The notes beneath the pieces are model-generated. The model saw only the letters and a list, made by a program, of their open reading frames with translations. It ran no database searches and was not told the DNA's origin. A program made the position numbers and the translations under genes. A DNA stretch of 64,000 nucleotides, from positions 1-64,000 of the forward strand of contig CALVBP010000007.1 in NCBI GenBank assembly GCA_944325825.1, given 5' to 3'. Shown piece by piece: positions 35,847 through 55,203 of this stretch (position 1 is its first letter; the number at the start of each line of letters is the position of its first letter). This DNA is from Candidatus Gastranaerophilales bacterium. GTDB taxonomy: Bacteria; Cyanobacteriota; Vampirovibrionia; Gastranaerophilales; Gastranaerophilaceae.

Positions 35847-38800
35847 GTGATGCTATTTTTTCGATACTTTTGTTTAATTTTGCAATTTGTCTGTCCATAC
35901 CGCCCACTTTTTTAGTAAGTTGTGCTGTATCTTTACCGTCTAAAAGTTCCAATGCGTCTTCCAGCTTAGCTTCCAAAGAATTAATTTTATCCTGCTGTAC
36001 AGACATTTTTTCATCCACCGCAACCAGGAATTTATTAATTGTATCTTCCAGAGGAGTCAAGTCAAACTTTTTAGTACTATTTATTGTGTTTTCTACTATG
36101 ATTTTATCAAGTTTTGCTTCAAGAGACGAAATTCTCTTGGTTTGTTTTTCAAATACATTTCCTAGCGCTTCAACTAGCTCAATGCTTTCAGAATCATCTT
36201 CCGCTTCAGCTTTTAAATCTGTCAACATTGCCTTAATTTGTTCTATTTCGTCCAAAGACTCAACTCTATCTGCTATAGTGTTAATTTGAACACTTGCATT
36301 ATCAACCCATTCCGCAAGATATTCGAACACCTGATTAAACACTTGATTTGTCTTAGCTCCTGAAATCATCATATTGTTAAGAGAGTTTAATTTTGAATCA
36401 ATCTTATCAATACCCGCTTCTCTCGGGAAGTTTCGGGTTCTTTCATCCAAATCATTAATTACAAGTTTAAAATCTTGTAAATTATCTTGCAGCGTCTTAT
36501 ACGATTCATCTGAAGCAAGAATAAGTTTATTAGTTCTCGTGCTGATACTTACTAAATCTTCCGCAATATCTTCTATATCTTTCTTAGCAGGAAGTTCTGT
36601 CTTAATAGATTCAACAAGCTTATAGATATCATTTGTTGATGATATTAAATCCGAGAATTCTTTACCATGGTCATTATCTTTCATCTCATTTAAGACTAAT
36701 CTCAAATTAGCAATATCCGCTTCAAGATCTTGCAGGCTGTATATATAATCGACATCGCCTTCTGAAGAAATTATAGAATTAATTTTTTCATTAATATTTG
36801 AAATATCATCTTTTAATGAATCTATTTTATTATCAATAACCGCAACATTATCATTTATGTCTTCAACAACATCCGCGGAGGTCACAATATGGCTTAAAAT
36901 TGTTATAAGTTCTGAATGTTTTTCCTGAATAAAATCTAAGATTTCTTCCTGTTCGGCAACAAAAGAAATTTGATTAAAGACATTCAGAAATTGAGTAATA
37001 ATATCCGATTTAAAATCTTTTAGTTCTGCATCTAACTTGCCTTCCAGGTTCTGAGAATCTAATTTCTTTGAGAATTCCTCTATTGAAGCCAGCACAGAAT
37101 GCTTAACTAGAGTATTCATCTCTGCCACATCAGGCAGGTTATTACAACACAAATCACTTATATCTTCTATATAGCTTAACTCTTCTTGTATTAAATCTTC
37201 CAAACCTGCTATCTGCTTATTTATAGATGCTTGGAATGCTTCATCAAAAGACTTATTGGAAATTTGAGATCTTAAATTATCAAAACTTTCTTGCAGTTTG
37301 TCAATTTGTTTTCCATTTTCTTCACAAGAAGATTTAACCAGATTAGAAAGTTCGTCAATTTTGCTGTTTACCCCTGATTTTACATCTTCAAAACGTGAAA
37401 TAATATCATTAACAGAATTATTTATATTATTAAACGAATCATTATATTTATTAGAAATAAGTTTAATTTCTTCATATTTATCAACAACCGTATCAATAAA
37501 CTTTTTATCAAATAATGAAAGCTTGTCTTCAATATTTTTTCTGTCAGCTGAGATTATGTTACCTATTTCAGTAATATTTTTACTTATAAAATCTTCAATT
37601 CTGTCGTTTAAACTTTCTACTGAAGAATTTATTAAAAGTTCAACAGCAACTTTATAGTCTGACATTGCAGATGTAAATAGATTTGCATCTAAAAGCTTAT
37701 TTAAGTTTGTAATAAGTTTTTCAACCGAATCCGTAAGCTCAATCTTTAAATTATCGAGTTTTCCCAGCATTACAGATGTATCAGTCTTAATATCAAAAAA
37801 TGATTTTAAATCCTCAATACTGTTATATATATGATTACTTATAATATCTTCTATTTGATTTGTTAGTTTGACAGTCTCGTCAGACTGCGACTTTTTAAGC
37901 AAATCAAATTGATCAATCAGTTCTGCAATCACAGTATCTGTTTCTTTTTCAACATTCTGAGAAAGTGAATCAAGACCTTTGCCCAGAAATTCAATAATTA
38001 AATCTTTACAACAAATAACATTTTGTTTTTCAGCCTCAATCTGTTCCGATAAATTATTGACATACGAATCAATTGATTGAAGCTCTCCCGCTGAAATTTC
38101 TGCACTTGTTGAAATCAATGAATTAACTTTTTCTGTAAGTGAATCGCTAAGCTCAAGAATAAGCGACTTATTATTATCAACCAAAGCATTTAAAGCTGCT
38201 AATTCCGATTTTGCAGCATTCGACATTGAAATCTGTTCATTTGCACGATTTTCAACAGATTTAACTGCATTGAGTATATTTTGTGCTTGTAAAACTGTAC
38301 CCTCATGCTGTTCTCGAGACAGAGCGCCAATATTTTCAAGTAAAGTATTATTATTAGCAGTCATTTGTGTTAATGCCGCAATATCAGCACTTGAAGTCTT
38401 TACGACATCAAACTGCTCAGACAAACTGTCTTTTACTTCACTAACACTTGCCTCCAAACGTTGAGCATTTGATGCAGTACTTTGAGTTAAAGCATCAAAG
38501 CCTTCTGTAACATTATATGAAACCGTATTTATACCGCTGTCTAAATCCGATTTTATTTCTTCAACATTAGCCGTTAACGTTTCACTATCTTTAGAAATTT
38601 TATCAAAAGATGCTGCTATGATGTTTTTAAGTTCTGTACCTGCAGCTTTAGTATTAGAATCAAGAGCCAGTATATCCGATTCAAACTTTTTATCCAGAGA
38701 CTCAAGCTTATTACCCAAGTTATCACATTTCGCAGAAAGTTCCTGAGCCTGAATATCCAGTACAGAATCTATATATTTTGTAATATCATCTAACTGTGCT

Positions 38801-41800
38801 TTTAAATCTTGTGTCAAAACCTGATTATTGGTTTCAATATTTTTAGCAAATTCATTCAGTTTAACCTTCAAAGAACAATAATCTGCTGCAGTTAGTTTAA
38901 CATTTTCATCTATTACACCTTTGAGAGTTTCTGCAATCTCAGAAATTTGCCTCATATTTTCATCAGACTGTTCTTCCCAGACTGCTTTCATTGCGGAATT
39001 TATATCAGAAATTCTGTCTTTTAAATAATCCGACTGGGAAGAAGCTTTAGCTTGCAGGTTATCAAAAACCTCTTCAATCTTTGTTTTATATCCTTCCAGT
39101 TTTTCTGATACCTTTTCTTGCATCCTTTCGGATATCGAAACGAATTCTGATTCAATTTTATCAGACAAAGATTTGTCAGATTTATCAAAAAGTATTGTTA
39201 TTTGTGAAACTAAAGACTCAAAATTACTTTCAATTATAGAAAGCTGCCTTGTCATATCACCGTCGACATTTTCATCAACTTTATCTAACACATTTTTTAA
39301 TCCGGCAAAATCCTCGAGGATTACATCCACCTTTTTAGATAAAGTATCAGCATATTGATCATTAAGGGAATTTACAAGAGACTTGAGCGATACAAAATTC
39401 TCAAGAATTTTGGCTAGAGCCCCGGTCATAGATGAAGAGTTGTCATCGGACAGTTTTCCGATTTGCACCTTTAATTCTTCTACTAAATCCGTTATTTCTT
39501 GAGTATTTTTACTGTACAGATTTTCAAACGAGAATTTTAGCTCACTTAATTTATCTGCATTTTCACAGGTAAATTCCTGTTTATAATCCGTAATTTTATC
39601 AAGCAGCGCATTTTTCAAAGCTGTCAGTTTAGAATCAAAATCACTTTTTAAAGTCCCGGCAGCATCTAAAATTCCTTCAATTTTATTATCAGCAGAAATA
39701 CTGTTTACCGAAAGGATTTCTTTAATCTCTTTATATGAATCTTGTATCTCCAGCAATTTTGCATATGAATACTTGAGCTCATTTTTTAAGTCTTCTGAAT
39801 TTTCAGAAATTGCCCGCTTAACTAAATCTAATTCTGCAGATGTTTCTTCCTGTATACTTTTTAAATTGTTCTCGACTTGTATTCTAATTACATCAACAAC
39901 ATCTCTGACATTTTCAATATAGTTTAAATTATTTTCTTTAAAAATATTTGAAATACCGGCAAGATTCACATTAGAATCAGAATCTGCAGACGATTTCGCC
40001 TCGCTTACATAAGACAAAACATCAACAATTGAAGAAGCTATATTATCCAATACCGGCTTAAGCGCTGTAAGAGAAGCCGCTTGAGTTTTCTTTAATTCAT
40101 CTTCAAAATTATCTAATTTGCTTATTAAGAGTTCATACTTCCCGTACAAATCATTGGTAAATTTTTCTGATAATTCTGAATTCGCACCTTCTATACTATT
40201 TGCAAGCTCCTGCTTTGATGCATACAAATCAACCCGTAAATCTTTTACAGTGTTTACAAAATCCAGAGCTAAGACTTTTTCTACAGCAGTCTTTAAATCA
40301 GTAAATTCTCTTTTCAGATTACCTGTCTCAACAACAGAAGAATCCATTTTATAATCAAGTACACCTGTTAAATTCTTTATATTTTCAATCTGATCAACCA
40401 GCTGTGCAGAGGAATTTGAAACTGAATTTTCTTGATTTTCCAGAGATGTTCTTAAGCTATTTTCAAACAAAGTAAGCCTGTCCGTAATATTTGAAAATAT
40501 TGCATTGTTCGCAGAAACACTATTTTCATCAAGCTGAGAAACAATTGCCTTTAAATCAGATATATTTTCAAAAACCGAACCAAAATTTTTCTCACATAAA
40601 ACAGCAATGGAAGACTGTGTATTATTGAGCTTTGAACTTAAGGTATCTGCTCCGGCCGTAATTGAGTTCAGCACCCTTGTTATGTTTACTTCATTAAGAC
40701 TTGAAATTTTCTCTGTACTTTCATCAATATGATTTTTAATATTTAATTCAGTTTTCCCTAAATTAGAAAGCAAGTTTTGGAAGTTTATATTTATATCAAG
40801 TGCCTTTACAGCATCTGACACTTTTTGAAGTTCCTCTGATGTAAACTTAAGATTCCTGTCAAGAGTCAACGTACCTTCAATAATATTCTTCAATGTTCCT
40901 TCAAGAGAAGTTTTAAATGTTTCAAATTGCTCATTTGTATTAATTAAAGAAACTTCTGTCTGTAATTTTTCCAAAGATGCAAGTATATCTTTTGTATTCT
41001 GGTCATTTTCATCAGCGATTGAAGCTTTTAATCCCGCTATTATATTTACTGAAGCATCAATTTTATCTGCAAGATTATCAATACGTATATATTTATCACC
41101 CAGTTCATTTACAGAGGCGGTGAGTTCTCTTGTTTGTGCTGTTAATTCAAATAAACGCTCATTTTGAGAGTTGACATCTGCTTGAGTTGCCAGATTTTTA
41201 AGAGCATCTTCCACTTGAACAGTTTTTTGATCCAACATTTGCAATGCAGACAATACAGTATTGGAAGACATTTCAATATTTGACAATACATCCGAAAATC
41301 TATCCAAATAATCAGTTTTATCAATTGATGTTATTGTCTTTATAATCGTTTTAAAGTTATCATTTAAACTTAAAACAATAGAATCAAACCCGTTATTCAA
41401 TCTTTCTAAATCATTCTTTAAAAGCGAAATATTTTTAATAATTTCTTTTTTCTGGGAATCATCAGACCTCAGAGCATCCAAACGCAGAGTTATGTCAGTC
41501 AAGGATTCTTTCTGAGAAACCACTTCTCTTGAAAATACAGAAAGATTTGTTGCAACAATATCAAAAAGCTCTTTTACTTCAGAAGATTTAATCATTTCTG
41601 AACTGTTCTTTAGGAGTGTTGAAAATAGGGATTCTATAGCACCGAATTTTGATAGTAAAATACTATGGCGCTCATCCAAATTTTGTTTTAATTCGGACAA
41701 GAAAATTTTTATTAAATCAATATCTTCTTCCGTATTAATTTTTTCCAGCTTATCATTAATACCTGTGAGCAACTTATCAACATCTGAGGTATTAAGAATA

Positions 41801-41883
41801 CCCTGTGCCCGTATTGAATTCAATAAAGTTTTAACTGTATCAAAATTCTCTTTTATTTCTGAAAAGTTATCGAAATCTGCCAT
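35830..41883 (-). CDS. Giant coiled-coil protein (about 2017 residues), unknown
   Basis: One uninterrupted frame of about 6 kb. The sequence is helical throughout, with heptad-like leucine/isoleucine spacing and many near-repeats of the form L-x-x-L-x-x-x-I/V-x-x-L, rich in S, D, E, K and N. There is no signal peptide, membrane helix or enzyme motif. Composition is like its neighbours, so recent transfer is not suggested. The ATG at 41883 (MADFDNF) or 41901 may be the start. It could be a cytoskeletal or polar scaffold, or a structural rod several hundred nanometres long if fully extended. No family was recognised. Confidence 0.8.
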   Translation of the reverse strand: MADFDNFSEIKENFDTVKTLLNSIRAQGILNTSDVDKLLTGINDKLEKINTEEDIDLIKIFLSELKQNLDERHSILLSKFGAIESLFSTLLKNSSEMIKSSEVKELFDIVATNLSVFSREVVSQKESLTDITLRLDALRSDDSQKKEIIKNISLLKNDLERLNNGFDSIVLSLNDNFKTIIKTITSIDKTDYLDRFSDVLSNIEMSSNTVLSALQMLDQKTVQVEDALKNLATQADVNSQNERLFELTAQTRELTASVNELGDKYIRIDNLADKIDASVNIIAGLKASIADENDQNTKDILASLEKLQTEVSLINTNEQFETFKTSLEGTLKNIIEGTLTLDRNLKFTSEELQKVSDAVKALDININFQNLLSNLGKTELNIKNHIDESTEKISSLNEVNITRVLNSITAGADTLSSKLNNTQSSIAVLCEKNFGSVFENISDLKAIVSQLDENSVSANNAIFSNITDRLTLFENSLRTSLENQENSVSNSSAQLVDQIENIKNLTGVLDYKMDSSVVETGNLKREFTDLKTAVEKVLALDFVNTVKDLRVDLYASKQELANSIEGANSELSEKFTNDLYGKYELLISKLDNFEDELKKTQAASLTALKPVLDNIASSIVDVLSYVSEAKSSADSDSNVNLAGISNIFKENNLNYIENVRDVVDVIRIQVENNLKSIQEETSAELDLVKRAISENSEDLKNELKYSYAKLLEIQDSYKEIKEILSVNSISADNKIEGILDAAGTLKSDFDSKLTALKNALLDKITDYKQEFTCENADKLSELKFSFENLYSKNTQEITDLVEELKVQIGKLSDDNSSSMTGALAKILENFVSLKSLVNSLNDQYADTLSKKVDVILEDFAGLKNVLDKVDENVDGDMTRQLSIIESNFESLVSQITILFDKSDKSLSDKIESEFVSISERMQEKVSEKLEGYKTKIEEVFDNLQAKASSQSDYLKDRISDINSAMKAVWEEQSDENMRQISEIAETLKGVIDENVKLTAADYCSLKVKLNEFAKNIETNNQVLTQDLKAQLDDITKYIDSVLDIQAQELSAKCDNLGNKLESLDKKFESDILALDSNTKAAGTELKNIIAASFDKISKDSETLTANVEEIKSDLDSGINTVSYNVTEGFDALTQSTASNAQRLEASVSEVKDSLSEQFDVVKTSSADIAALTQMTANNNTLLENIGALSREQHEGTVLQAQNILNAVKSVENRANEQISMSNAAKSELAALNALVDNNKSLILELSDSLTEKVNSLISTSAEISAGELQSIDSYVNNLSEQIEAEKQNVICCKDLIIEFLGKGLDSLSQNVEKETDTVIAELIDQFDLLKKSQSDETVKLTNQIEDIISNHIYNSIEDLKSFFDIKTDTSVMLGKLDNLKIELTDSVEKLITNLNKLLDANLFTSAMSDYKVAVELLINSSVESLNDRIEDFISKNITEIGNIISADRKNIEDKLSLFDKKFIDTVVDKYEEIKLISNKYNDSFNNINNSVNDIISRFEDVKSGVNSKIDELSNLVKSSCEENGKQIDKLQESFDNLRSQISNKSFDEAFQASINKQIAGLEDLIQEELSYIEDISDLCCNNLPDVAEMNTLVKHSVLASIEEFSKKLDSQNLEGKLDAELKDFKSDIITQFLNVFNQISFVAEQEEILDFIQEKHSELITILSHIVTSADVVEDINDNVAVIDNKIDSLKDDISNINEKINSIISSEGDVDYIYSLQDLEADIANLRLVLNEMKDNDHGKEFSDLISSTNDIYKLVESIKTELPAKKDIEDIAEDLVSISTRTNKLILASDESYKTLQDNLQDFKLVINDLDERTRNFPREAGIDKIDSKLNSLNNMMISGAKTNQVFNQVFEYLAEWVDNASVQINTIADRVESLDEIEQIKAMLTDLKAEAEDDSESIELVEALGNVFEKQTKRISSLEAKLDKIIVENTINSTKKFDLTPLEDTINKFLVAVDEKMSVQQDKINSLEAKLEDALELLDGKDTAQLTKKVGGMDRQIAKLNKSIEKIASHVVEK

Positions 41884-41983
41884 ATAACTACTATCCCACA
41901 TCCTAAATTATTACATTTACACTTATTATATACTAATATAAAAATAGTGACAAATAATAATTTTTTTCTTAAAATTAAACTTA

Positions 41984-43792: not shown

Positions 43793-45814
43793 TTGAAAAT
43801 CGAAAAGTGCAGTAACAGTCCAATAATTAACTCTTCTGATAATAAACAAGACAGGCAAGTTACAAAACCTTATAATCCGAGTTTTGGTTCTGGCGTAACC
43901 AGCGTGTTGAGTGGAGTCGGAAGCTTTATGCAGGGCGTTGAAAACGGAGGATTTCTGGTATCCTTCTTAATTCAAGACTGCTTAGGCATGACAATGCCTC
44001 GTGTAGGAGCTGCCTTTTTAAGAGACAAAGAAGTAACAGGGCATTATAACGTTCAGGAAGGATTTGAAGTTCTTGGCAGAGAAGGGCTTACAGGACCTTG
44101 TATGATGGCAGTAGCTCCAATTATGTTTGCACTTGCCGCAAAATTTGGGAAAACTACCAGTGTAAATTCTCAACTCATAAAAAGATTTGGTAATAGTTTA
44201 AAAGAGATAGTTGCCAAATCTGATTTTGATAGAGCTCTATTAAAGAATAAGGATAAATTCAAAGAAGAATTCTTTAGAAAAAATATTCGCAAAATGCTGG
44301 AAAACTCTCTTGGTAAAGAAAATGTAAAAGAAGAAAGCATTGAATATATACTCAAACAGCTCAAAAACTATGAAAACATACCTGTAGATGCCAAAACGAA
44401 GAAATTGTTTGGAAAGAACAAGTACAGAAAAGAATGCTTGGCTAATATCTCGGAGCATATTGATAACATCAGATACAACACCTCTACCGATCTTAATATG
44501 TTACAAAAAATAAAAGTAGGATCTGATGAATTAAAAGATATCAAGGCCTTCTCTACAAAAGAAGCAATTGATGCAATGGTTAAATACAGTAATGATGCCA
44601 TCGCAATTAATAAACAACTCGACAAACTTGATGCAGCACATGCTGAAAGCATAAAAAACAGTTCTATTGCAAAACGTATGATTGCAAATATTTCGACAAT
44701 GGCTGCAACTTTAGGAGTGCTGTCAATCCTACCTAAAATATATGCAAAAAGTGATATAGCCCCTGGTGCACAAACCGCAAACAAATTACGAGAAATTAAA
44801 GAGCAAGAAAGAAAGCTGGAAAGAGAACTCGAGCATGACAAAGAGCGTGAAGCTATCTTAGAAAAAGACCTTGAAATTGAAAAGAAAAGAGCTAACGGAG
44901 AAGTTAGTTTCAAAGGCTCAAAAAATCCTTTATCAAAACTTGGAGAAATTATTTCTAAACACTCTAATGAAAAGATTTCTTCAGAATTAGAATATAACGG
45001 TCATAATTTTACACATACTTTAATGGCCGGGCTCTCCCTATTCGGGTTACTTTTACCCAGAGGGTTGAGAGCATATAATCGTGCTCAAACCGATGATGTA
45101 ACAGGTAAAAAAGACTTAACTGAATTGTACGAAATTCTTATAAGAGATATTACCTCCAGCTTAGCTGTTGTATTTGTTGTACCTATGCTAACAAGAGCAT
45201 TTGTAACATCCTATGAAAAACAATCCGGATTTGTCTTAATGCAGAAAAACAGAAACATGAGCAAGTCCAAAACCATGCTCAACTTGTTAAATCCGTACAG
45301 CCAAGCTCATGTACTTACCAATTCTGAAATTTCATCTCTTTACAATAATGTTGACAGTCTGGATAAAATGAAGAACTTCTGCAAATACATCGATAAAAAT
45401 AACGGTGATTTACAAAAAATACTTTCAAAATCTGAAACTGTTAACACAATCTTCAATGAAAAGACTCTGGATTTATCAAAATTAAAGAATTTAGACAGAA
45501 GCGAGAAAAACAAAAAAATTATAGAATTCTTTGAGCACTTTGATAAACAAGCAGTTAAACTTAACAAATCCAGAGATAAGACAAGTCTTAATCAGCTTGT
45601 TACAAACTTAATGAAGAGTGTTAAAAAGCCTAAAGGAAACGGAATTACAGCATTCGCAAGAGGTTTAAATTCGATTCCGGCATTATTAACAATGGTATTT
45701 ATATCACCATACATCTTAGGGTGGTTTATACCTAGATTAACCTATGCAAATACCCGAAGAATCCACGAGAAACAAGAACGTGAACGTGAAGCTATACTAA
45801 ACAAAACCGCATAA
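43793..45814 (+). CDS. Large lineage-specific membrane-associated protein, unknown
   Basis: A 673-residue protein with a TTG start (weak AAAGGG upstream). An N-terminal PSFGSG motif and a Gly/Ala-rich hydrophobic region (about 30-120) lead into a helical domain. Then come a hydrophobic stretch near 295-315, a long E/K/R coiled coil (about 328-370) and a second SFKG motif (about 374). Two or three more hydrophobic segments follow (about 410-425, 455-475, 625-645). No family was recognised. Its stop is 2 bp from that of the convergent transglycosylase gene. Confidence 0.7.
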   Translation: MKIEKCSNSPIINSSDNKQDRQVTKPYNPSFGSGVTSVLSGVGSFMQGVENGGFLVSFLIQDCLGMTMPRVGAAFLRDKEVTGHYNVQEGFEVLGREGLTGPCMMAVAPIMFALAAKFGKTTSVNSQLIKRFGNSLKEIVAKSDFDRALLKNKDKFKEEFFRKNIRKMLENSLGKENVKEESIEYILKQLKNYENIPVDAKTKKLFGKNKYRKECLANISEHIDNIRYNTSTDLNMLQKIKVGSDELKDIKAFSTKEAIDAMVKYSNDAIAINKQLDKLDAAHAESIKNSSIAKRMIANISTMAATLGVLSILPKIYAKSDIAPGAQTANKLREIKEQERKLERELEHDKEREAILEKDLEIEKKRANGEVSFKGSKNPLSKLGEIISKHSNEKISSELEYNGHNFTHTLMAGLSLFGLLLPRGLRAYNRAQTDDVTGKKDLTELYEILIRDITSSLAVVFVVPMLTRAFVTSYEKQSGFVLMQKNRNMSKSKTMLNLLNPYSQAHVLTNSEISSLYNNVDSLDKMKNFCKYIDKNNGDLQKILSKSETVNTIFNEKTLDLSKLKNLDRSEKNKKIIEFFEHFDKQAVKLNKSRDKTSLNQLVTNLMKSVKKPKGNGITAFARGLNSIPALLTMVFISPYILGWFIPRLTYANTRRIHEKQEREREAILNKTA

Positions 45815-45816
45815 TT

Positions 45817-46485
45817 TTACAGATAGCTGGATAAAATAGAGCGTACGTAATTTTGCGTTTCTTTATACGGCGGAACACCGTCATATTTATCAACAGCACC
45901 GGGGCCTGCATTATATGCGGCAAGTGCAAGTATTACATTACCGTTATATCTATTCAGCATTGATTTTAGGTATTTTACTCCGCCTTCAACATTTTGTTCC
46001 GGATCAAGAGGATTTGTAACACCCAAACCTTTAGCAGTAGCAGGCATTAGTTGCATTAAACCTAAGGCTCCGACACGAGATTTCGCATTAGGATTAAAAC
46101 CTGACTCTTGATTTACAAGTGCATTTACTAATTTTTCATCAACGCCATGTTTCTTTGAAACTCTTGATATAAGCTCTTTTATTTTTGATTTTGTTGAGTA
46201 ATCTTTTGAAATACCTTCTGCATTACTCGAATATATAGTTGCATTAACTCTTGTTGCCGGATTAGTAAGTAAATCCCCGAATTTTGCCTGTGCAGAAGAC
46301 TTTAGGACTTTATCAAAAGATTCTATATTAGCTTTATTAGCGGTTGATTGAACGGCATTGTTAGATTCCACCGGAGTCCATTGTGCGTTTAGTCTGTTTA
46401 TATAACTATTCATTTGAGCAGCACGCTGCATAGCACTTGACTGTCCTGATGACGATAGCAAATTTTGAATCATAGCTGAAAACAT
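45817..46485 (-). CDS. Lytic transglycosylase (SLT domain)
   Basis: A 222-residue protein. The C-terminal SLT/goose-lysozyme-like domain (about 108-222) has the catalytic glutamate E127 in [12 protein letters not shown], then [13 protein letters not shown] and [15 protein letters not shown]. It cleaves peptidoglycan between MurNAc and GlcNAc with anhydro products. The N-terminal 100 residues are Ser/Asn-rich with no clear signal peptide, so export may be non-classical or the protein may belong to an assembly machine. AAGGAT lies about 9 bases before the ATG. Confidence 0.88.
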
Positions 46486-46651
46486 GTTTTATTTATCCTT
46501 TCAATTAAACATGACGGGGAATCATAAGTTTTCTTTAAGTAATTTATAAAAAATACACTATATGGTTTAATATTTTTATACGATAAGTCAAAAATATGGA
46601 TTTTTTTTTTACAATATGATATTATAACCACATAGTGAGGGAGAGTGTCCG

Positions 46652-48841
46652 GTGAATAATGAGAATTTTTTAATAGAAGAAAGAGATTTAGAACTCGCAA
46701 GGGATATATGCAAGTATATTGAAAATCCGGTAATAAGAAATCGTGCAGTTGCTAATGCTATTGCCGGTAATGTTGCAGAAAAATATTTTACAGAGATAGA
46801 AATTGATACCGCATCAGGATTACACAATATATCTTATGTTTTAAATAACCTTGAGATTTCTGATATATATATTAACAATTGTTACATAGATGTAAGGCTT
46901 TACTTTAATGACAATGAGCTATGCGTTCCTAAGATACTTTTTGATAAGGGTATAGAGCCATCTGCGTTCATGTTTATAAAGGTTACGCCTGATTTAGCCG
47001 GCGGAACTGTTACAGGCTTTGCTCTGCCAAATGAAATCGATACATCGGTAGAATTAAACGGTTATTATAAAGTAAATGAAGACCAGCTGGTATCGTTTTA
47101 TGATATAGAACCTCTGTTAACTGATAGACAAGCTCAAGAATTTATAGATGATATTGATCAGAAAGTTTTCTCGTTCCTTGACGGTTCTCTGGAGAATGTG
47201 GATGAATTCTACAAAGAGCTTCTAAGTTCAAAAGATGCGAGAGAACGGTTAGCTATTGCTGCTAAAGCTCAAAATATTTTCAATTTTATATCAATCACCA
47301 AACCGGAAGAAAATCATGTATCCGCCTCACCGGAAACAACTAAAGAAACTTTGGAAGAAAATTCTCCTGTTAATATGGATATGAGTTCAGAACCGTTAAT
47401 ACTGGAAGAAGAGCCGGTAGAATTTTCTCTTGAAGAAACATCTGATTTTGAACCTATTGAAGATTTTGAGAATTCGCTTGTACAAGGTGAACCTTTTGAC
47501 TTATCAGCAGAAACCGGAAGCTTTGAACTTGAAGAAACCGATGCGGTTAATGAATTGGAAAATTTTGGAAACGAAAGTCCGGAAGAACTTATTGAAAATA
47601 CGACAGATAAAGATATCGAAGATATTGAAATACCTGTTGATAATGATATTGAAAAAGAGTTCGACGAACAGGAAGAAACTTCGCCTTTTAATGAAATAAC
47701 AAGCGATGGTAATTTATCTTCTGATATAGATGGTATTGAATATTCTGAGATAAGCGCTGTAAATTATGAAGATATGCAAATAGCTGACACATATGAGCAG
47801 GTAACAGAAGCTGCAGACACAGATATCGTTGAAGAAATAATACCAAATTCAGAAGAAGATACTGATACCTTGTTAGAGAATGAAATACCGGAATACAATC
47901 CTGATACAAACAGAATTTCAGACGAGAATTCTATTCAGGAAGCATCGGCAGAAACCTTTGAATATTCAACCTCAACTACTCCGAGCATAAATACAATCGA
48001 AGAATCCATGGAAAGCAAGGAGGGTAATGAGGGTGATGTGCATAATGAAGAAAGCCTTGAAGACCTTTTAGAAAAATCTGAGACAAAAGATGAAGAGGTA
48101 TCTGATGATGTACAAAATGAAAATACGCCACAAATAGATACTCTATTTAATCAAACTTCGGAAGAGGAAGAAATAGATAGTGCAGTTAACACAACTATTT
48201 CAAAGAAAAAGAGCTCGAAATTGCTTCCTATTGTAGGAGTTCTTGCAGTTTTAGGTGCTGTAGGTTATTATGGCTATACTAAGTTTATGATGCCGGCATC
48301 CTCTACACTTCCTGCACCGCAAAATGATTTAAAACAAACTCAAGTTAAACAAGCAGTCAACAAGAAGAAAGCTCAGCCGGTACAAGAAGCCATGCCGATT
48401 GAAACAGTTGAAAACATAGAAACACCTGCTAAAACAGAAGAAGCTGCTGCGGTGTCTATACCTGCAATAGAACAAAATCTTGATGCTTCTATTCTGGTAT
48501 CAAACCTTACTGTCAATTGGGAAGTTCCAAGCGGATATGTTTCTAATAATACCGCTAAACGATACTTCCTGAAACTGGGTAAAATCATACAACTTAACCT
48601 AAAAACAGAGCTTTTATTACTTAGTAAGCCTCCTATTACTAATAAGATTGCGGTTGAAGTTGAGTACAACAAAGATACTAAGAAATTTGAAGTAAAAGGT
48701 ATGACTGAGTCCAGCGGAGAAAAATCCGTAGATGATGTAATATTAAAAACCGTTAATAATGCTTTGGATATGAATCTGAGGATGAACACGGGTTCATTTG
48801 GTAATATAACCGGTAATCCTGTTCTTGTAATTCATTTATAA
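46652..48841 (+). CDS. Membrane protein with acidic linker and TonB-C-like end
   Basis: A 729-residue protein (GTG start, GAGGGAG upstream). Residues about 1-215 form an ordered N-terminal domain that resembles cyanobacterial DUF1822 by eye (NAIAGNVAEKYFTE ... CYIDVRLYFNDNELCVPKIL); this is a weak call. Residues about 216-520 are an acidic E/D-rich disordered linker, about 525-547 is a membrane helix (LLPIVGVLAVLGAVGYYGY), and about 613-729 is a TonB-C/TolA-like beta domain. It opens an operon with the next two genes. It could span the envelope and link a cytoplasmic domain to a periplasmic one. Confidence 0.6.
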   Translation: MNNENFLIEERDLELARDICKYIENPVIRNRAVANAIAGNVAEKYFTEIEIDTASGLHNISYVLNNLEISDIYINNCYIDVRLYFNDNELCVPKILFDKGIEPSAFMFIKVTPDLAGGTVTGFALPNEIDTSVELNGYYKVNEDQLVSFYDIEPLLTDRQAQEFIDDIDQKVFSFLDGSLENVDEFYKELLSSKDARERLAIAAKAQNIFNFISITKPEENHVSASPETTKETLEENSPVNMDMSSEPLILEEEPVEFSLEETSDFEPIEDFENSLVQGEPFDLSAETGSFELEETDAVNELENFGNESPEELIENTTDKDIEDIEIPVDNDIEKEFDEQEETSPFNEITSDGNLSSDIDGIEYSEISAVNYEDMQIADTYEQVTEAADTDIVEEIIPNSEEDTDTLLENEIPEYNPDTNRISDENSIQEASAETFEYSTSTTPSINTIEESMESKEGNEGDVHNEESLEDLLEKSETKDEEVSDDVQNENTPQIDTLFNQTSEEEEIDSAVNTTISKKKSSKLLPIVGVLAVLGAVGYYGYTKFMMPASSTLPAPQNDLKQTQVKQAVNKKKAQPVQEAMPIETVENIETPAKTEEAAAVSIPAIEQNLDASILVSNLTVNWEVPSGYVSNNTAKRYFLKLGKIIQLNLKTELLLLSKPPITNKIAVEVEYNKDTKKFEVKGMTESSGEKSVDDVILKTVNNALDMNLRMNTGSFGNITGNPVLVIHL

Positions 48842-48859
48842 TATTGGGAAAGAGAGTTT

Positions 48860-50329
48860 ATGGAAAAGAATAAGTATTATGATTTAATAGTTGAATTAAT
48901 AAAAGAAAATCAAAAATTTCCCGGACATGAAGATATTTTAGATGCAATAGCAGAAGATGTTTATAATCATGCAAAAGTTGTCTTAAATTCTGTAACCAAT
49001 GAAGATGTAATATCTGCTTATTTGGAAAAAGTGATTTCTACCTCTATTATTACAGTTTCTAAGAAGCTCAATAAAAATACTCGTATGCGCTCATCAAATG
49101 CTGTTGATGCTATCATTGCGGCCAGAAAAGCTGCTGCAGCAACGAAACTCTCTTCCGTCAAAGCAGAAACTGTTGAAAAAGTTGACTTAACCGTTAACAC
49201 AGAATTGGTTGATAAAATGATAAACGGTATCGCTGTTCAACAGGAGCCAACAGAGCATCTGCAAGAACCTGAAGAAGAAGCCCCGAGCTTTGAACCTATA
49301 ACAGACAGTCTCGACATCCCGGAAGAGACTCCTGTTTTGGAAGACTCTGTTCCAGCTGAATCTGATGAATACTTAAATCAGATTTCATCTGCAGATTTTG
49401 AAGAACCGGTACTTCAAGAAGAGGAAGATGAAGTTTTACTTGATATTAACTCAGATGAATCCATTAATATGGATATTGATAATATAGCAGAAATCGAATC
49501 TCCTACAGAAGAAGAAGAAGAAGAAGAAGAAGAAGAAGAAGAAGAAGAAGAAGAAGAAGAAGAAGAAGAAATTCCTTCTGTTGATTTTAATCAGGAATTT
49601 ACAATTGAAGATTCCTCTGCTGGTATCACAGAATTAACACCGCCGAATAGTGATGTTACTGAAGCTGAAGAATCATTAATAGGCACTTCTCAAGAAGACT
49701 TAAAAAGCGACGAAAGTATTGATGAATATAAAGATTCAGAAAACCTCACAGAAACATTTATAGAAGAATCCGAGCCTCCTCAGGACATTTTAGAAGAGAC
49801 AAACTCTTCGGAAGAAATTGGAGAAGAGGAGACTTCTAATAATCTTCTAGAAGATGTTTCTCAAGGTGTTGATGAGCTTTTTGCTGAAAACGGGAATGAC
49901 GTTGATACTCTTCCGGAAATATCTGAAGAAATAAATATGGGTTTTGATGTAATTTCAGAGACCGAAGCTTTACCATTGGAAGAAAATTCTTCTATTCAGG
50001 ACCTTGAAGAAATTAACCCTGCCGGAGCTGATATTATTGATGAAGATGCAAATTCTGCACAAGATACACTCGCAAAAAATATTGCAATACCGGATTATTC
50101 CTTGTTTAGTTATAATCCGGGGCCGCAAGAATCTCTATGGAATGAAGCTGACGTAGAAGAAGCGCTGGCAACCATTGATAAAAAAGAACCCGATTCTAAT
50201 ATTTTTGAGCTGTATAAACTCCGGTATAATAAAGGTTATACGGTTGACAAAATTTGTAAAGAACTTAATCTTGACAAAGAAAGTGTTATTGATTCATTGA
50301 TTGAGATATCTTTATTAGTAAAGGAATAG
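48860..50329 (+). CDS. Acidic protein with 21-Glu tract and C-terminal HTH
   Basis: A 489-residue protein. The N-terminal about 110 residues are ordered and helical. Residues about 115-420 are very acidic and probably disordered, with E217-E237 from an uninterrupted run of GAA codons. The C-terminal about 60 residues hold an HTH-like segment (GYTVDKICKELNLDKESVIDSL). It lies 18 bp after the membrane protein gene and 7 bp before the zinc-ribbon/NTPase gene. The acidic linker is like that of the upstream gene. No family was recognised. Confidence 0.6.
   Translation: MEKNKYYDLIVELIKENQKFPGHEDILDAIAEDVYNHAKVVLNSVTNEDVISAYLEKVISTSIITVSKKLNKNTRMRSSNAVDAIIAARKAAAATKLSSVKAETVEKVDLTVNTELVDKMINGIAVQQEPTEHLQEPEEEAPSFEPITDSLDIPEETPVLEDSVPAESDEYLNQISSADFEEPVLQEEEDEVLLDINSDESINMDIDNIAEIESPTEEEEEEEEEEEEEEEEEEEEEIPSVDFNQEFTIEDSSAGITELTPPNSDVTEAEESLIGTSQEDLKSDESIDEYKDSENLTETFIEESEPPQDILEETNSSEEIGEEETSNNLLEDVSQGVDELFAENGNDVDTLPEISEEINMGFDVISETEALPLEENSSIQDLEEINPAGADIIDEDANSAQDTLAKNIAIPDYSLFSYNPGPQESLWNEADVEEALATIDKKEPDSNIFELYKLRYNKGYTVDKICKELNLDKESVIDSLIEISLLVKE
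49508..49570 (+). repeat. (GAA)21 trinucleotide repeat in a coding region
   Basis: Twenty-one uninterrupted GAA units, in frame as Glu codons with no GAG interruption. Slippage in units of three keeps the frame, so the repeat could vary the Glu tract length between cells or strains. Confidence 0.9.
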
Positions 50330-50336
50330 AAGTTTA

Positions 50337-53291
50337 ATGCAATGTCCCAGATGCAAAAAAGAAATTGAAGACAATTCTTTAAAGTGCAGCTATTGCGGTG
50401 CTAAAGTAGGGTCTTTATGCAAATCTTGCGGGGCATACAACCCTATAACAGCTAAAGAATGTTCCGGCTGCGGAAATATCTTATTGAAAATTTGTCCGGA
50501 TTGCGGTTCAGCAAATCTTCCGGCTGCAAAGACATGCCGCAAATGTAAAGCAAATCTTGAAAAAAAAGAGGAAAAAGAACAAGCTGCATTACCGGTTTAC
50601 ACAGGAAACATGTTTTCACAACAGAAAGTAAAAACAAAACTTCTTGATGCTATTAAAAATGTAAACACTAAAGTTATTACAATAGGCGGGGAAAGCGGAT
50701 TAGGGAAAAATCTGATTCTCCGGTACAGTATTAATGAATTAAAAAACGCTAAGCTAATATGGATGCTTGGTTCTTGCACACAAATTACACAGCTTTCACC
50801 ATTCGGCTTCTTCCAGGACATGTTATTGAATTTTTTTAATATTAATAACTTCTGTCCGGATACTTTGCAACTCAAAAAAAACTCTTTAAAATTTTTTAAA
50901 CAAGACTTTCCGTCTTTAACAAATAATGAAATATTAGATTTATTAAACTTTTTATACCCTGAAAATATGGATAAATATGAAAATATTTATTATAACAAGG
51001 CAAGAATGTTTAATATTATGAAAAAAGTTATCTTAACCATACTTGAAAAAATGAAAGTTGTATTTATTATAGATAACTTTGAATATATAGATGGGATGTC
51101 ATATGACTTTATAGAAGAACTTCTAAAAGAAGAATTGGTTCTTGAAAGAAGTAAGTTTATACTGATTTCGGCAGAACCAAAGCCAGGACTTGGCAGACTT
51201 CCTTCTCCCTCTTTAAGTGCTGATAATTACATGGACTTAACGATTGCTCCATTTTCTCCAAATCAGATAGAATCTCTTCTGGGACAGTACAGCGGAATTA
51301 AATTTGAAAAACCTTTTATTGAACAGGCAATCAAAATATCAAACGGCATACCTGCTGCTGTCGAGCAAATCGTTCTTCTTTATAATGACATCAAAAGGAA
51401 TGGTCTAAAATCCAAATCTTACAGCACATTAGAAGATGTAGTCAATTTACGGCTAAACATACTTAAACAAACAGATTTACATGCATATAGAATTCTAACG
51501 GCAATGTCAATTCTTGGTAAAAAATTCTATCCTGCAATGCTTGAAAATTTTGATAACAATCCGGAACAAGAATTCGAACGAATAGTTGAAAAACTTGTTG
51601 AATCGGGATTTATTACTCAAATCAATACTCTGTCATTTGAATTTAAAAGCAGCAGAATCTGGAAAATTATTGTTGCCTACGTAAAAAATGATGAGAATTT
51701 TGAAGAAATATTGAATATGCTCTATGAAATTCTGAGCATATATAAACAATCATCTATAGCCCTGTTAGGGTATATTGTACAAAAGTTAAGCAACAACGAT
51801 CAAGCCTTTGATATTTGGACATTATTAATGAAACAAGCTTGCTATATCGGAGATATCGGTCTGTACATTATAACCCAGAAACAGGCTCTTAAACTTATAG
51901 AAAATAAAACTAACCCATTTTATCAAAAAGTTAAAAGAAATATCTACACAAGAGTCGGCAAGCTTCTTGAACCTATTGACTACAAGGCAGCTTTTGAGTA
52001 TTTGCAAACAGCAATTATGATGCTGGATGATACGGATGATGCCGAACATATAGAATTATTAGGCTACCTTGCTTCTTGTTCAATGAAAGCAGGTAATTAC
52101 TGGGGCGCTATAGAATGTACCGACAGTGTTCTAAACAAACTTTCCGAGGATATGAAATTTGAAAGAATCCTTATAAAAGCAAGGCAAGTTAAGCCACTGC
52201 TTAGACTGGGCAATTACGGACAACTTATAAATCTTATTGAAACAGAACTTTTGCCGGAAATAGAAAAAGTTCTGTCAAAAGGGAGAGATTTACCTGTTAT
52301 TAGGATTTCAGACCTCTTTGATACCTGGATTGATATATATTTTGATTTTGCTGAAGCTCTTATCTTCCAGGGGGATGGAAAAATGTTCGATGTTATCCAG
52401 AGCATAGGTGATATTCTGGAGAAAAATCAAAGAGCAGATACAGCAGTAACTTGCAGGCTCTATTTGCTTATTGCGCTTGCTAACACTATAAAAGGCAACT
52501 TTAAAACCTCTAAAAAAGTTTTAGACGATTTGCTTAAAAATTATCAGCTTGATAATATGGATTCCTTTATTGTTTCAAGATGGAATTTTATAGATATTTT
52601 AAACAAGTTCTTTGAAAAAGACTATAATACTCTGTATACTGAATTATTTAATGTTACAGCATATGCAAATAATGTTAATGATAATTTTACAAAAAATATT
52701 TTAAAGACCCTGCTTGCCAAAATTTTAAAAGATGGCGGACAAACAAAAAAAGCGTTGGAAATTTTAGAAGAACAGGTTTCATATTTTGCAAAAACCAAGG
52801 TCGCTACAGGAGTCCTTTTATCCTGGTATTTAATTGCGGAAATAAAACTTATTACAAATGGTACCCAATTTGCGCTTGATATAGCAACAAAAGCCCTTGA
52901 TATAGCACAGGGGCCTAATATAAACAACTATTACTTTATCGCCTTATTTAACAGATTAATCGGAGAAATTTATCTTGCTAAACAAGATTTTGAGTCTGCA
53001 AAAGTTTATATTGAAAAATCAATAGTTATAGCTAAACAATTTAATCTTGAATTTATACTTCTTAACAGCTATTTACAAAATGCTAAATTATATCAGGAGC
53101 TAGCACTGCCCAAGTCTAGCAAAAGGCCTGAATACATAAAACAAGCTCTTAAGATGTTCCAGCTTGCCAAAAACTTATCTATCGTATCAGAACAACCAAT
53201 TATACAAAAAACTATAAAAGAAGCTCTCAACCTGTTGCTTTCTTTTTGCAAGCTTAATGGTATTGCTATTAGCGGGAAGAGTCCGGAATAA
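50337..53291 (+). CDS. Zinc-ribbon/P-loop NTPase/TPR-like protein
   Basis: A 984-residue protein. Three four-Cys ribbons fill residues 3-70 (C3, C6, C17, C20; C28, C31, C42, C45; C53, C56, C67, C70). A STAND-like or AAA-type NTPase domain follows (about 95-380): P-loop GESGLGKN at 118-125 with Asn125 where Ser/Thr is usual, and Walker B VVFIIDNFEYID (about 241-252). The remaining 600 residues are helical TPR-like repeats. This is the layout of large signalling ATPases. The Asn may weaken Mg-ATP binding. It ends the three-gene operon; the convergent gene ends 24 bp further on. Confidence 0.75.
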   Translation: MQCPRCKKEIEDNSLKCSYCGAKVGSLCKSCGAYNPITAKECSGCGNILLKICPDCGSANLPAAKTCRKCKANLEKKEEKEQAALPVYTGNMFSQQKVKTKLLDAIKNVNTKVITIGGESGLGKNLILRYSINELKNAKLIWMLGSCTQITQLSPFGFFQDMLLNFFNINNFCPDTLQLKKNSLKFFKQDFPSLTNNEILDLLNFLYPENMDKYENIYYNKARMFNIMKKVILTILEKMKVVFIIDNFEYIDGMSYDFIEELLKEELVLERSKFILISAEPKPGLGRLPSPSLSADNYMDLTIAPFSPNQIESLLGQYSGIKFEKPFIEQAIKISNGIPAAVEQIVLLYNDIKRNGLKSKSYSTLEDVVNLRLNILKQTDLHAYRILTAMSILGKKFYPAMLENFDNNPEQEFERIVEKLVESGFITQINTLSFEFKSSRIWKIIVAYVKNDENFEEILNMLYEILSIYKQSSIALLGYIVQKLSNNDQAFDIWTLLMKQACYIGDIGLYIITQKQALKLIENKTNPFYQKVKRNIYTRVGKLLEPIDYKAAFEYLQTAIMMLDDTDDAEHIELLGYLASCSMKAGNYWGAIECTDSVLNKLSEDMKFERILIKARQVKPLLRLGNYGQLINLIETELLPEIEKVLSKGRDLPVIRISDLFDTWIDIYFDFAEALIFQGDGKMFDVIQSIGDILEKNQRADTAVTCRLYLLIALANTIKGNFKTSKKVLDDLLKNYQLDNMDSFIVSRWNFIDILNKFFEKDYNTLYTELFNVTAYANNVNDNFTKNILKTLLAKILKDGGQTKKALEILEEQVSYFAKTKVATGVLLSWYLIAEIKLITNGTQFALDIATKALDIAQGPNINNYYFIALFNRLIGEIYLAKQDFESAKVYIEKSIVIAKQFNLEFILLNSYLQNAKLYQELALPKSSKRPEYIKQALKMFQLAKNLSIVSEQPIIQKTIKEALNLLLSFCKLNGIAISGKSPE

Positions 53292-53314: not shown

Positions 53315-53869
53315 CTATACGTAATCATCAGGATTTCCTGAATAATCTTGAATCATACCGGTTTCTTCCGTAGTTGCGGCTACTCCGGAATAATCTTTAA
53401 CGGATTCCCTATAAGCGAGAGCCCGCTTATTAAGCTCATCCATTGCCATAGGTCCTGTTAGAACTTCAATTACTTCACCGTTTGAATCATAGAGCTTTAA
53501 GCGTGGGATTTCAACACCTTGAGGTGTTTTAAATCCCATTAAAGACATCGGCCCGTACTCACCAAAACCATCTTTTATCTCATAATATATTTCTTTTAAG
53601 TTTTCATTATCAAGACAGCTTAAAGCAACATTATTACTCGTTTCTCTTTGCACCCAATCTTGAACGGTCTGTGTCTCTTCAAGGAGTTCGGCAAGCTGCT
53701 CTGATGTAGCTTTAATATTAACAAATAATGGGTCGCCGCCCTTACCTACGGCAGTCGGACCTTTATCCCTTGATTTAAAAACTCTGTAATTGGCTTCATC
53801 AATTACTTTATTACCGTTTGAATCAGTTTGTATATTAGGATTCTTTTCAATATTAAATTCATCAGCCAT
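53315..53869 (-). CDS. Small soluble protein, unknown
   Basis: A 184-residue, rather acidic protein with no signal peptide or membrane segment. A central part (about 80-150) includes KEIYYEIKDGFGEYGPMSLMG and VEIPRLKLYDSNGEVIEVL. An AAGGAG ribosome site lies before the ATG. Its promoter region is shared with the divergent gene at 54044, which also has the HLR1-like site. No family was recognised. Confidence 0.6.
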   Translation of the reverse strand: MADEFNIEKNPNIQTDSNGNKVIDEANYRVFKSRDKGPTAVGKGGDPLFVNIKATSEQLAELLEETQTVQDWVQRETSNNVALSCLDNENLKEIYYEIKDGFGEYGPMSLMGFKTPQGVEIPRLKLYDSNGEVIEVLTGPMAMDELNKRALAYRESVKDYSGVAATTEETGMIQDYSGNPDDYV

Positions 53870-53935
53870 GAGAATACTCCTTATAATTTGATTTACGGCA
53901 TAAAACCGGGAATCTTTAATAAAATAATCAAAATT

Positions 53936-53953
53936 TTTACAAATATTTACAAT
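53936..53953 (+). promoter_or_regulatory. HLR1-like direct repeat upstream of the 54044 gene
   Basis: TTTACAAA (53936-53943), TA, TTTACAAT (53946-53953). All defined HLR1 positions match. It lies 26 bp upstream of the -35 box of the 54044 gene and 66 bp before the divergent 53869 start. Either or both genes could be controlled. Confidence 0.6.
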
Positions 53954-53979
53954 TTGAGAACTGCAGTTTTAGTAAATAA

Positions 53980-54008
53980 TTGACTTTAAATTTTCTCTAT
54001 TGTTAAAT
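53980..54008 (+). promoter_or_regulatory. Probable promoter of the 54044 gene
   Basis: TTGACT (53980-53985), a 17-bp spacer and TTAAAT (54003-54008). The inferred start is about 30 bases before the ATG at 54044. Confidence 0.5.
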
Positions 54009-54043
54009 ATGATTGTGTGTATCGCAACAAAGGATTATTAGTA

Positions 54044-54808
54044 ATGTATATAATGCCAATCAACAACTATCAACCATCTTACCGTGGTAAATTTTTAAAA
54101 ACACGTGCACTTTCAAATTATGTAGACAGTCTTGATGAAACAGGGTTAAAACTATTTCTTAGAAACAAGCAGTTAATGGAAGCAAAACAAGACGGAAAAA
54201 TCTTCATTTATGAAAAAAAATATTTATCTCAGAACGCAGGCGGACAAACACGTGTTGTTTTAAGAGAAAACAACTGGCCAATCATAAATGAAGTAACCCA
54301 TGAATGGTGTTGCAACGTTGACGGGGAAGAAGTAAGCAAAAGTTATCCCGATGCAGAAAAAAAAGTTTTTGATAAGCTTTTTGACAAGTATAACAACGAC
54401 CGTAAATTCGAAGAAACTCAGGAATATAACACCGTAAATAAAAGAATAAATAAATTGAAAGACAGAATTCTTTCCGAAATAGAACCTATAAATTACGGAT
54501 TGGGAAAAATTCGTACAAATCTTATTTTTTCAGGAGATAAATACGTTACTGTTGATGCAGGACAAAATAGAAAAAGAGTTTACTCCAAATCAAAAGAACT
54601 ATTACAAGAATATATGGTCTTTGATAAGCCTCGTAATGAAAGCTATGGGGATTATGTATTAAAAGATTATGAAAACGGAAAATTAGTCAGAGAGTATATA
54701 TGCAATAGTGATTACACAAAAGTTAACAGGATTCGCATAACAGAAAACGGGGCGCCCGGGCCATGGCGATGTATTTACGAGGATGGCAGTATTGGAGAGC
54801 CCGTCTAG
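54044..54808 (+). CDS. Lineage-specific protein with SYRGKF-type N-terminus, unknown
   Basis: The ATG at 54044 has AAAGGA about 9 bases upstream and gives 254 residues. The N-terminus MYIMPINNYQPSYRGKF includes a PSYRGKF motif similar to the PSFGSG start of the 43793 protein. The rest is a mixed helix/strand domain with a repeat-like end (YGDYVLKDYENGKLVREYI; MRITENG-type strands). There is no signal peptide or membrane segment. It lies upstream of rnpA and under the promoter with the HLR1-like site. Function is unknown. Confidence 0.65.
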   Translation: MYIMPINNYQPSYRGKFLKTRALSNYVDSLDETGLKLFLRNKQLMEAKQDGKIFIYEKKYLSQNAGGQTRVVLRENNWPIINEVTHEWCCNVDGEEVSKSYPDAEKKVFDKLFDKYNNDRKFEETQEYNTVNKRINKLKDRILSEIEPINYGLGKIRTNLIFSGDKYVTVDAGQNRKRVYSKSKELLQEYMVFDKPRNESYGDYVLKDYENGKLVREYICNSDYTKVNRIRITENGAPGPWRCIYEDGSIGEPV

Positions 54809-54858
54809 AGCATATAACTGTTTACAAAATATTAGTATTAGGCTATTATTTACTTACT

Positions 54859-55203
54859 ATGCTGCAAAAAGAATACCGGTTAAAAAAAAGAACAGCATTT
54901 AATGCCACATACAGAACCGGAGTATCATTCCACAGAGACGGCATTACAATGTTTTGCGGAAAAGAAAAAAACACAGAGACTCCGACTAAAATCGGCTTTG
55001 TTGTAAGTAAAAAAATTCATAAACGTGCGGTAAAACGGAATCGGATAAAACGTTTAATGAGAGAAAGTGTGCGTCTGCACATCAAAGAAAATGGTTTTAC
55101 AACAAAATATCTATCCGTAATTTTCACTGCATCCTCTAAATGTCTAAACAAAGACTTTAAAGAAATTAACTCCGGAATAACAAAACTTATAGGCTTATTA
55201 TGA
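54859..55203 (+). CDS. rnpA: Ribonuclease P protein component
   Basis: RnpA binds the RNase P RNA to mature tRNA 5' ends. From the ATG at 54859 it has 114 residues, the family length: EYRLKKRTAFNATYRTGVSF, then IGFVVSKKIHKRAVKRNRIK-RLMRE with the RNR signature. No clear ribosome site precedes the ATG, and the frame is open further upstream to 54763. The usual neighbours rpmH and yidC are not adjacent. The stop overlaps the next start (ATGA). Confidence 0.93.
   Translation: MLQKEYRLKKRTAFNATYRTGVSFHRDGITMFCGKEKNTETPTKIGFVVSKKIHKRAVKRNRIKRLMRESVRLHIKENGFTTKYLSVIFTASSKCLNKDFKEINSGITKLIGLL

Follow-up and report, generated by a model that had tools for sequence, protein, structure and literature searches.

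The question raised by this locus is what three closely spaced genes, which a sequence-only reading of the DNA had described as an uncharacterised operon of a membrane protein, an acidic HTH protein and a zinc-ribbon NTPase, do in the gut Gastranaerophilales. The window, i.e. the whole stretch of 64,000 nucleotides that was analysed, comes from a genome of 1.85 Mb (57 contigs, 95% complete). We find that the operon is a variant of ECF sigma/anti-sigma systems, that it gives the domain DUF1822 a candidate role, and that its sigma factor is unusual in one genus, namely that of the window genome (the window genus). The trio is probably a sigma/anti-sigma switch combined with a STAND-like ATPase in one operon, in which the sigma factor of the window genus would most likely work as a protein-binding switch. 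An uncharacterised core operon can thus be tested as a sigma/anti-sigma circuit that has a predicted promoter, and DUF1822, a domain present in most of the cyanobacterial genomes sampled, gains a candidate function. In addition, the genomes form a natural series from an intact sigma factor with its promoter, through a degenerate sigma factor with a changed promoter, to the loss of the sigma factor, which is useful for studying how sigma factors are repurposed or discarded, and which roles an anti-sigma factor and an ATPase play once the sigma factor no longer reads promoters.

Table 1. Features of the operon and its upstream region, in positions of the window
Feature	Position	Strand	Basis or remark
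Genus-specific promoter-like motif RGATTTTTTT-N8-ATGNTATNAT	46598-46625	+	replaces the ECF-type promoter; conserved across aligned genus loci
Gene 1	46652-48841	+	729 aa, GTG start; membrane anti-sigma candidate
DUF1822-like alpha/beta domain, gene 1 residues 1-157	46652-47122	+	PF08852 in same-genus genomes; hhalign; Hjc Z 7.4
Three-helix anti-sigma domain without zinc ligands (candidate), gene 1 residues 164-223	47141-47320	+	RsiW 5wuq_D, Z 6.3 (below the tool's level for an unambiguous match), rmsd 2.7, 60 residues
Gene 1 acidic linker, fast-evolving	47297-48211	+
Gene 1 single TM helix LLPIVGVLAVLGAVGYYGYTKFM, start near residue 524	48221-48289	+	sequence
Gene 1 TonB-C-like periplasmic end (predicted)	48509-48838	+	TonB_2 in relatives
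Gene 2	48860-50329	+	489 aa; ECF sigma-factor derivative split by acidic insert
Sigma region 2, gene 2 residues 1-75	48860-49084	+	E. coli sigmaE 6jbq_F, Z 6.6, rmsd 4.0, 76 residues
Gene 2 acidic disordered insert	49247-50089	+	most of residues 127-405 with pLDDT <50
Sigma region 4 fold without SQSEVSKR recognition-helix motif, gene 2 residues 426-489	50135-50326	+	SigD region 4 3vfz_B, Z 8.5, rmsd 2.3, 58 residues
Gene 3	50337-53291	+	984 aa; zinc-ribbon/AAA_16/TPR protein (STAND-like)
Three zinc ribbons	50337-50552	+	CxxC at residues 3, 17, 28, 42, 53, 67
Former cyclase/linker site, ~16 residues remaining	50562-50610	+	relatives: degenerate class III cyclase domain or acidic/charged linker
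Walker A GESGLGKN, residue 118	50688-50711	+	sequence
Walker B VVFIIDNF, residue 241	51057-51080	+	sequence
TPR-like helical repeats	51954-53276	+	profile matches

The trio is a real, conserved operon. As had been read from the sequence, and as the ORF coordinates confirm, the three genes are co-directional, with gaps of 18 bp between genes 1 and 2 and of 7 bp between genes 2 and 3. All three occur in the same order at each locus of the window genus with enough upstream sequence; the trio is the rule across the family (one representative per genus), and an outgroup family (L160) has it as well. Gene 3 is present in 144 of the 146 genomes and in all 41 of the 41 genera of the family, its nearest named loci being 62 to 89% identical and mostly labelled Candidatus Gastranaerophilales or Melainabacteria/Cyanobacteria; it is also found in other families of the order, with weaker relatives at the class level. 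The sequence-only reading had made its proposal depend on the three genes staying together in relatives, which holds for all testable loci of the genus and for a family-wide cluster, but not for several genera in which gene 3 lies apart or the sigma gene is missing. Genes 1 and 2 are paired and apart from gene 3 in f4, g9 and g20, gene 1 has no detectable adjoining sigma gene in f2 and six genera (one clade in the gene 3 tree), and gene 3 is found alone in f2, f4 and several genera. Since gene 3 also occurs alone, its tie to the sigma factor may be regulatory rather than physical. Between the window and its close relatives, dN is 0.06-0.28 in the structured parts of the proteins versus 0.51-0.81 in the acidic linkers; dS is saturated, so that only contrasts in dN are used and dN/dS values are not quoted. 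The low dN of the structured parts indicates that the sigma-derived domains are maintained, unlike those of a decaying pseudogene.

Some neighbouring features may be recorded here. The flanks are syntenic in the genus where examined, with genes for a 673-aa protein and a transglycosylase upstream, and for a 184-aa protein and rnpA downstream (window positions 43793-46485 and 53315-55203). Further upstream, the minus strand carries an ORF of 2023 aa (35830-41901). In g9, a divergent gene 3 relative of 1039 aa is located near the separated gene 1/gene 2 pair (L288:8728-11847), the full gene 3 being on another contig.

The identity of gene 2 emerges from its relatives. In most other genera the protein has ~190 aa and lacks the long insert, and the sister-genus orthologues (L037, L044 and L049) match TIGR02937, the model of the ECF superfamily, with up to 71 bits (cut-off 42.9); furthermore, Pfam sigma region 4 scores above its cut-off in gene 2 of other genera. 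The window protein aligns at both ends to these short relatives, its sigma2 and sigma4 being separated by an acidic insert of ~290 residues. Structure prediction of each domain, which had been put forward as a check, was carried out: in the AlphaFold model the ends of gene 2 are ordered and the middle is disordered, and the ends match sigma regions 2 and 4, the sigma2 and sigma4 folds both being present with moderate Z-scores, while gene 1 matches RsiW (Table 1). Window gene 2 itself has no match to sigma profiles in Pfam, NCBIfam or a TIGR02937 search of its own genome, and although chains of sigma region 4 headed the Foldseek results, their E-values exceeded 0.3. Gene 2 is, on the alignment of its relatives and the modest Z-scores of its predicted folds, a descendant of an ECF sigma factor. 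The acidic linker and the HTH-like end assigned to it earlier are thus kept, but the "HTH-like protein" is a sigma derivative whose N-terminal ~75 residues, i.e. region 2, are ordered as well.

The acidic linkers had also been taken as a sign that the proteins form one complex. That of gene 2 contains 37% D+E versus 1% K+R, and that of gene 1 contains 31% D+E versus 4% K+R. Because the long insert of gene 2 is a derived trait that arose at the level of the window genus, shared linkers are no argument for one complex, and this part of the proposal is abandoned. The linkers of genes 1 and 2 consist in part of near-identical short repeats, e.g. SLIDLNNQNIDTEED or DDDDMLILDDEDETP (L024:6452-7198; L022:6739-8487; L059:1793-7144), which suggests that repeat expansion lengthens them.

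For gene 1, the parts named by the sequence-only reading were all recovered: an ordered N-terminal domain (pLDDT 91, pTM 0.86), the acidic linker, one TM helix and a TonB-C-like end. The last of these matches Pfam TonB_2 above the cut-off in L288 and L289 and below it in L034 and L045, with no match of this profile in the window copy; a profile search with window gene 1 returned one sub-threshold match. The N-terminal domain is DUF1822-like (PF08852), a model that gene 1 of the outgroup L160 matches with 40.5 bits (cut-off 25). Across the family this domain is found about once per genome, four same-genus genomes matching with E 5e-6 to 1e-5, and the window genome itself has no PF08852 match in the profile search. 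An hhalign comparison of gene 1 with cyanobacterial DUF1822 gave 94% (E 1.4e-7), and the domain scores above the cut-off in 154 of 244 genomes of the phylum. Directly behind DUF1822, the zinc-finger profile zf-HC2 is above its cut-off in L045 and L059, and 6 of 26 genus representatives carry the motif Hx3Cx2C there (residues 195-210). Class I anti-sigma domains are helical bundles that bind the sigma factor, with non-zinc forms being common, and are defined as N-terminal with a fourth helix (PMC7406223). Gene 1 shares with this class the three-helix bundle and the position next to a sigma gene; its domain is not N-terminal but follows DUF1822, and no fourth helix was seen in the model after residue 210. 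From these profiles and the predicted fold, we consider gene 1 a candidate membrane anti-sigma factor, with the DUF1822-like and putative anti-sigma domains on one side of the TM helix and the predicted TonB-C-like end on the other.

It had been suggested that the operon reaches from a DNA- or RNA-binding element to the periplasm as one complex. A sigma factor joined to the periplasm by a membrane protein agrees with the first half of this suggestion but not with a fixed single complex; a fixed assembly of three proteins is not required, since gene 3 lies apart, or gene 1 lacks a sigma partner, in several genera.

The core of the DUF1822 domain (gene 1 residues 33-157) resembles a PD-(D/E)XK nuclease-like fold in the model, the match being to archaeal Hjc (VIA-align only, Z 7.4), and residues D80 and R82 hardly vary within the genus. 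A Foldseek search with the N-terminus of gene 1 gave no significant match (best E 0.02). The modelled likeness is a resemblance of fold, and nuclease activity is not claimed.

Gene 3 fits its earlier description, with three zinc ribbons (six CxxC pairs), Walker A and B motifs and TPR matches, to which a profile match to AAA_16 can be added. An alignment of 29 relatives shows no variation at any of the twelve ribbon cysteines or at Walker A residues G123 and K124. Between the ribbons and the NTPase, many relatives have an insert of at least 200 residues. At the class level it represents a degenerate class III cyclase domain (hhalign versus phylum cyclases: 96%, E 1.7e-9); the order-level copies align weakly (E 0.0016), the family-level copies not significantly, and in some genera an acidic or charged linker alone occupies the site. 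In window gene 3, neither a cyclase homology domain nor a long linker was found between ribbons and NTPase. The link to cyclases comes from the profile-profile comparison with the phylum cyclases; for the degenerate region, a PDB sequence search returned nothing significant and Pfam Guanylate_cyc stayed below its cut-off (E 0.03). By sequence comparison, gene 3 is a descendant of zinc-ribbon/cyclase/AAA/TPR proteins, whose layout we take to be soluble-adenylyl-cyclase-like, and the graded series of relatives suggests that the cyclase domain decayed along the way. Gene 3 resembles these proteins (zinc-ribbon/class III cyclase/AAA_16/TPR) in its N-terminal zinc ribbon, AAA_16 NTPase and TPR repeats, and differs from them in that the window copy lacks the cyclase, which in the family-level copies is highly degenerate or replaced by an acidic linker. 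Each of the Gastranaerophilaceae genomes searched has one class III cyclase match.

If gene 2 derives from an ECF sigma factor, the next question is which promoter it reads. In genera with an intact sigma factor, TGGAATATTTT is found upstream of gene 1, and in 16 genera the starts of GGAATA and of a downstream GTNHTC-type element are invariably 20 nt apart, which is the layout of ECF promoters. The strict pattern (GGAATA-20 nt-GTNHTC) has 65 matches in 97 family genomes versus ~11 in the reversed control, and most of these are single matches in their genome, located at this operon. In g9 and g20, where gene 3 is elsewhere, the pattern accompanies the sigma pair. No copy was found upstream of separated gene 3, and lineages that lost the sigma gene lack the pattern, with f2 keeping a near-match. 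The ECF-type promoter is also absent upstream of gene 1 in the window genus. The motif that replaces it, RGATTTTTTT-N8-ATGNTATNAT, has a single match in the whole window genome; across 19 genus genomes it matches 11 times, in 11 of them, versus 0 in the reversed control. A sister-genus locus (L025) looks intermediate, with GGAA kept and the -10 element changed. A second block conserved throughout the genus (window positions 46500-46600) contains ATNCACTATATGGTTTAAT followed by GTCAA (TTGAC on the other strand), and probably serves as promoter region for the lytic transglycosylase gene that diverges from the operon (45817-46485, minus strand).

The protein of the window genus has changed as well. 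The SQSEVSKR motif is found in 0 of 32 species of this genus versus 24 of 27 orthologues elsewhere, the mean net charge of sigma4 is -5.3 in the 32 species versus +1.4 elsewhere, and the GRLRR stretch is likewise gone; hence the conserved promoter-contact residues (basic patch of region 2.4, recognition helix of region 4.2) are lacking. Promoter reading by gene 2 of this genus appears to have been lost or changed. Despite the lost DNA-contact residues, conservation persists in both sigma domains (sigma2 and sigma4), in the anti-sigma domain and in gene 3.

These observations suggest how the circuit might work. In genera with an intact sigma factor, gene 1 would hold the sigma factor at the membrane until a periplasmic cue arrives, and the freed sigma factor would transcribe its own operon, giving a positive feedback that would also raise the level of gene 3. 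The product of gene 3 could act as an effector or co-regulator through its nucleotide-switched AAA domain and partner binding by its TPR repeats. In the window genus, the sigma derivative might instead serve as a ligand of the anti-sigma factor, or as an adaptor towards gene 3 or RNA polymerase, and no longer as a canonical promoter reader. We favour such a protein-switch role because the DNA-contact residues are gone and the promoter is changed while the sigma2, sigma4 and anti-sigma domains and gene 3 are conserved; altered promoter specificity is its main rival. More tentatively, and with the odds somewhat against it, DUF1822 could be the sigma-binding or signal-gating part of anti-sigma factors, with a pseudo-sigma in the window genus switching between a membrane anti-sigma factor and a STAND-like ATPase.

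Two other readings concern the window genus in particular. The trio there could be a signalling or structural complex without any role in transcription, gene 1 being a hub that recruits gene 3 through a pseudo-sigma adaptor. The retention of the sigma fold without its DNA-contact residues, the genus-wide disordered acidic insert of gene 2 and the standing of gene 3 as the most widely kept member would all suit such a complex, which we nonetheless hold to be doubtful, as in most other genera the sigma factor looks functional and its promoter is in place. Alternatively, gene 2 could be a working sigma factor of changed specificity that reads RGATTTTTTT-N8-ATGNTATNAT and still autoregulates. The strong conservation of this derived motif in the genus, including its -35-like half, and its single occurrence in the window genome are in line with this, as are the intermediate form in L025 and the conserved sigma2 and sigma4; on the other hand, sigma4 has become acidic, none of the 32 species retains the recognition-helix motif, GRLRR has gone too, and the new -10 (TGnTATtAT) is what an extended -10 would look like to the housekeeping sigma factor. 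We therefore regard changed specificity as unlikely, and retain the protein-binding switch as the preferred reading.

The sequence-only reading knew of no described system with this layout, a statement that does not hold: gene 2 of sister genera is an ECF sigma factor, and neighbourhoods of sigma factors with DUF1822 have been published. Like SigW/RsiW and RpoE/RseA, the operon has a sigma2/sigma4 gene adjoining that of a one-TM putative anti-sigma factor with a three-helix domain, with Hx3Cx2C in some genera and an ECF-type promoter (GGAAT / GTC) upstream in relatives. Unlike these systems, it has the anti-sigma gene first, the anti-sigma domain behind DUF1822, a TonB-C-like periplasmic end, an ATPase as the third gene and, in the window, a sigma factor with an acidic insert and without DNA-contact residues. 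FecI/FecR cell-surface signalling likewise combines a sigma factor with a one-TM regulator that has a periplasmic part, and involves a TonB-related domain, all of which have counterparts here. The present operon differs from it in that no outer-membrane receptor gene adjoins, the TonB-C-like domain is on the regulator itself, and a FecR domain was not found.

The closest parallel is found within the phylum. A sigma ORF directly adjoins DUF1822 in 20 of 30 strong phylum loci, Pfam sigma domains were found as well, and annotated plasmids carry the arrangements sigma-70/DUF1822/CHAT (Nostoc), caspase/sigma-70/DUF1822 (Rippkaea), and DUF1822/CHASE2/DUF928 with CHAT nearby. At the family and order level, the operon resembles these neighbourhoods in that the sigma gene adjoins DUF1822 and a gene for a signalling or effector protein; the window sigma and DUF1822 partners are recognised via relatives and folds alone. 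It differs in gene order and in its third partner, a zinc-ribbon AAA-TPR protein, and none of CHAT, caspase or CHASE2 was found in the window trio. Furthermore, cyanobacterial DUF1822 proteins match the whole model of 370 positions, whereas here only the first ~170 positions are matched, and an anti-sigma domain, a TM helix and a TonB-C-like end follow. Our literature search yielded no paper in which DUF1822 is described as an anti-sigma factor, and no description of sigma/anti-sigma factors of Gastranaerophilales or Melainabacteria; the sigma-DUF1822 neighbourhoods are already published. Neighbourhoods of EACC2-caspases include ECF sigma factors and DUF1822, and such caspase/CHAT-type systems have been proposed to be related to apoptosis or immunity (Kaur et al. 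2021, PMC8195603). By analogy, gene 3, with its STAND-like architecture, might be a defence-type STAND NTPase for which the sigma pair would provide an inducible switch. We consider this very improbable, as there was no PADLOC match and gene 3 is a core gene shared by nearly the whole family, unlike the patchy genes of defence. That the three genes are unrelated neighbours merely sharing low-complexity acidic stretches, as the fast evolution of the linkers and the separation of gene 3 from the pair in several genera might suggest, is hardly credible given that order and spacing are kept at every testable genus locus and in the outgroup family, that sigma/anti-sigma domains are recognised and that the promoter motif is operon-specific.

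Finally, a CHASE2-type protein is encoded near the sigma-less gene 1 in three genera (G000:C12:30184-30726, i.e. L268; L284:10624-12573; L291:1540-3495), CHASE2 together with a cyclase being confirmed in two of them, which recalls the cyanobacterial DUF1822-CHASE2 neighbourhoods.
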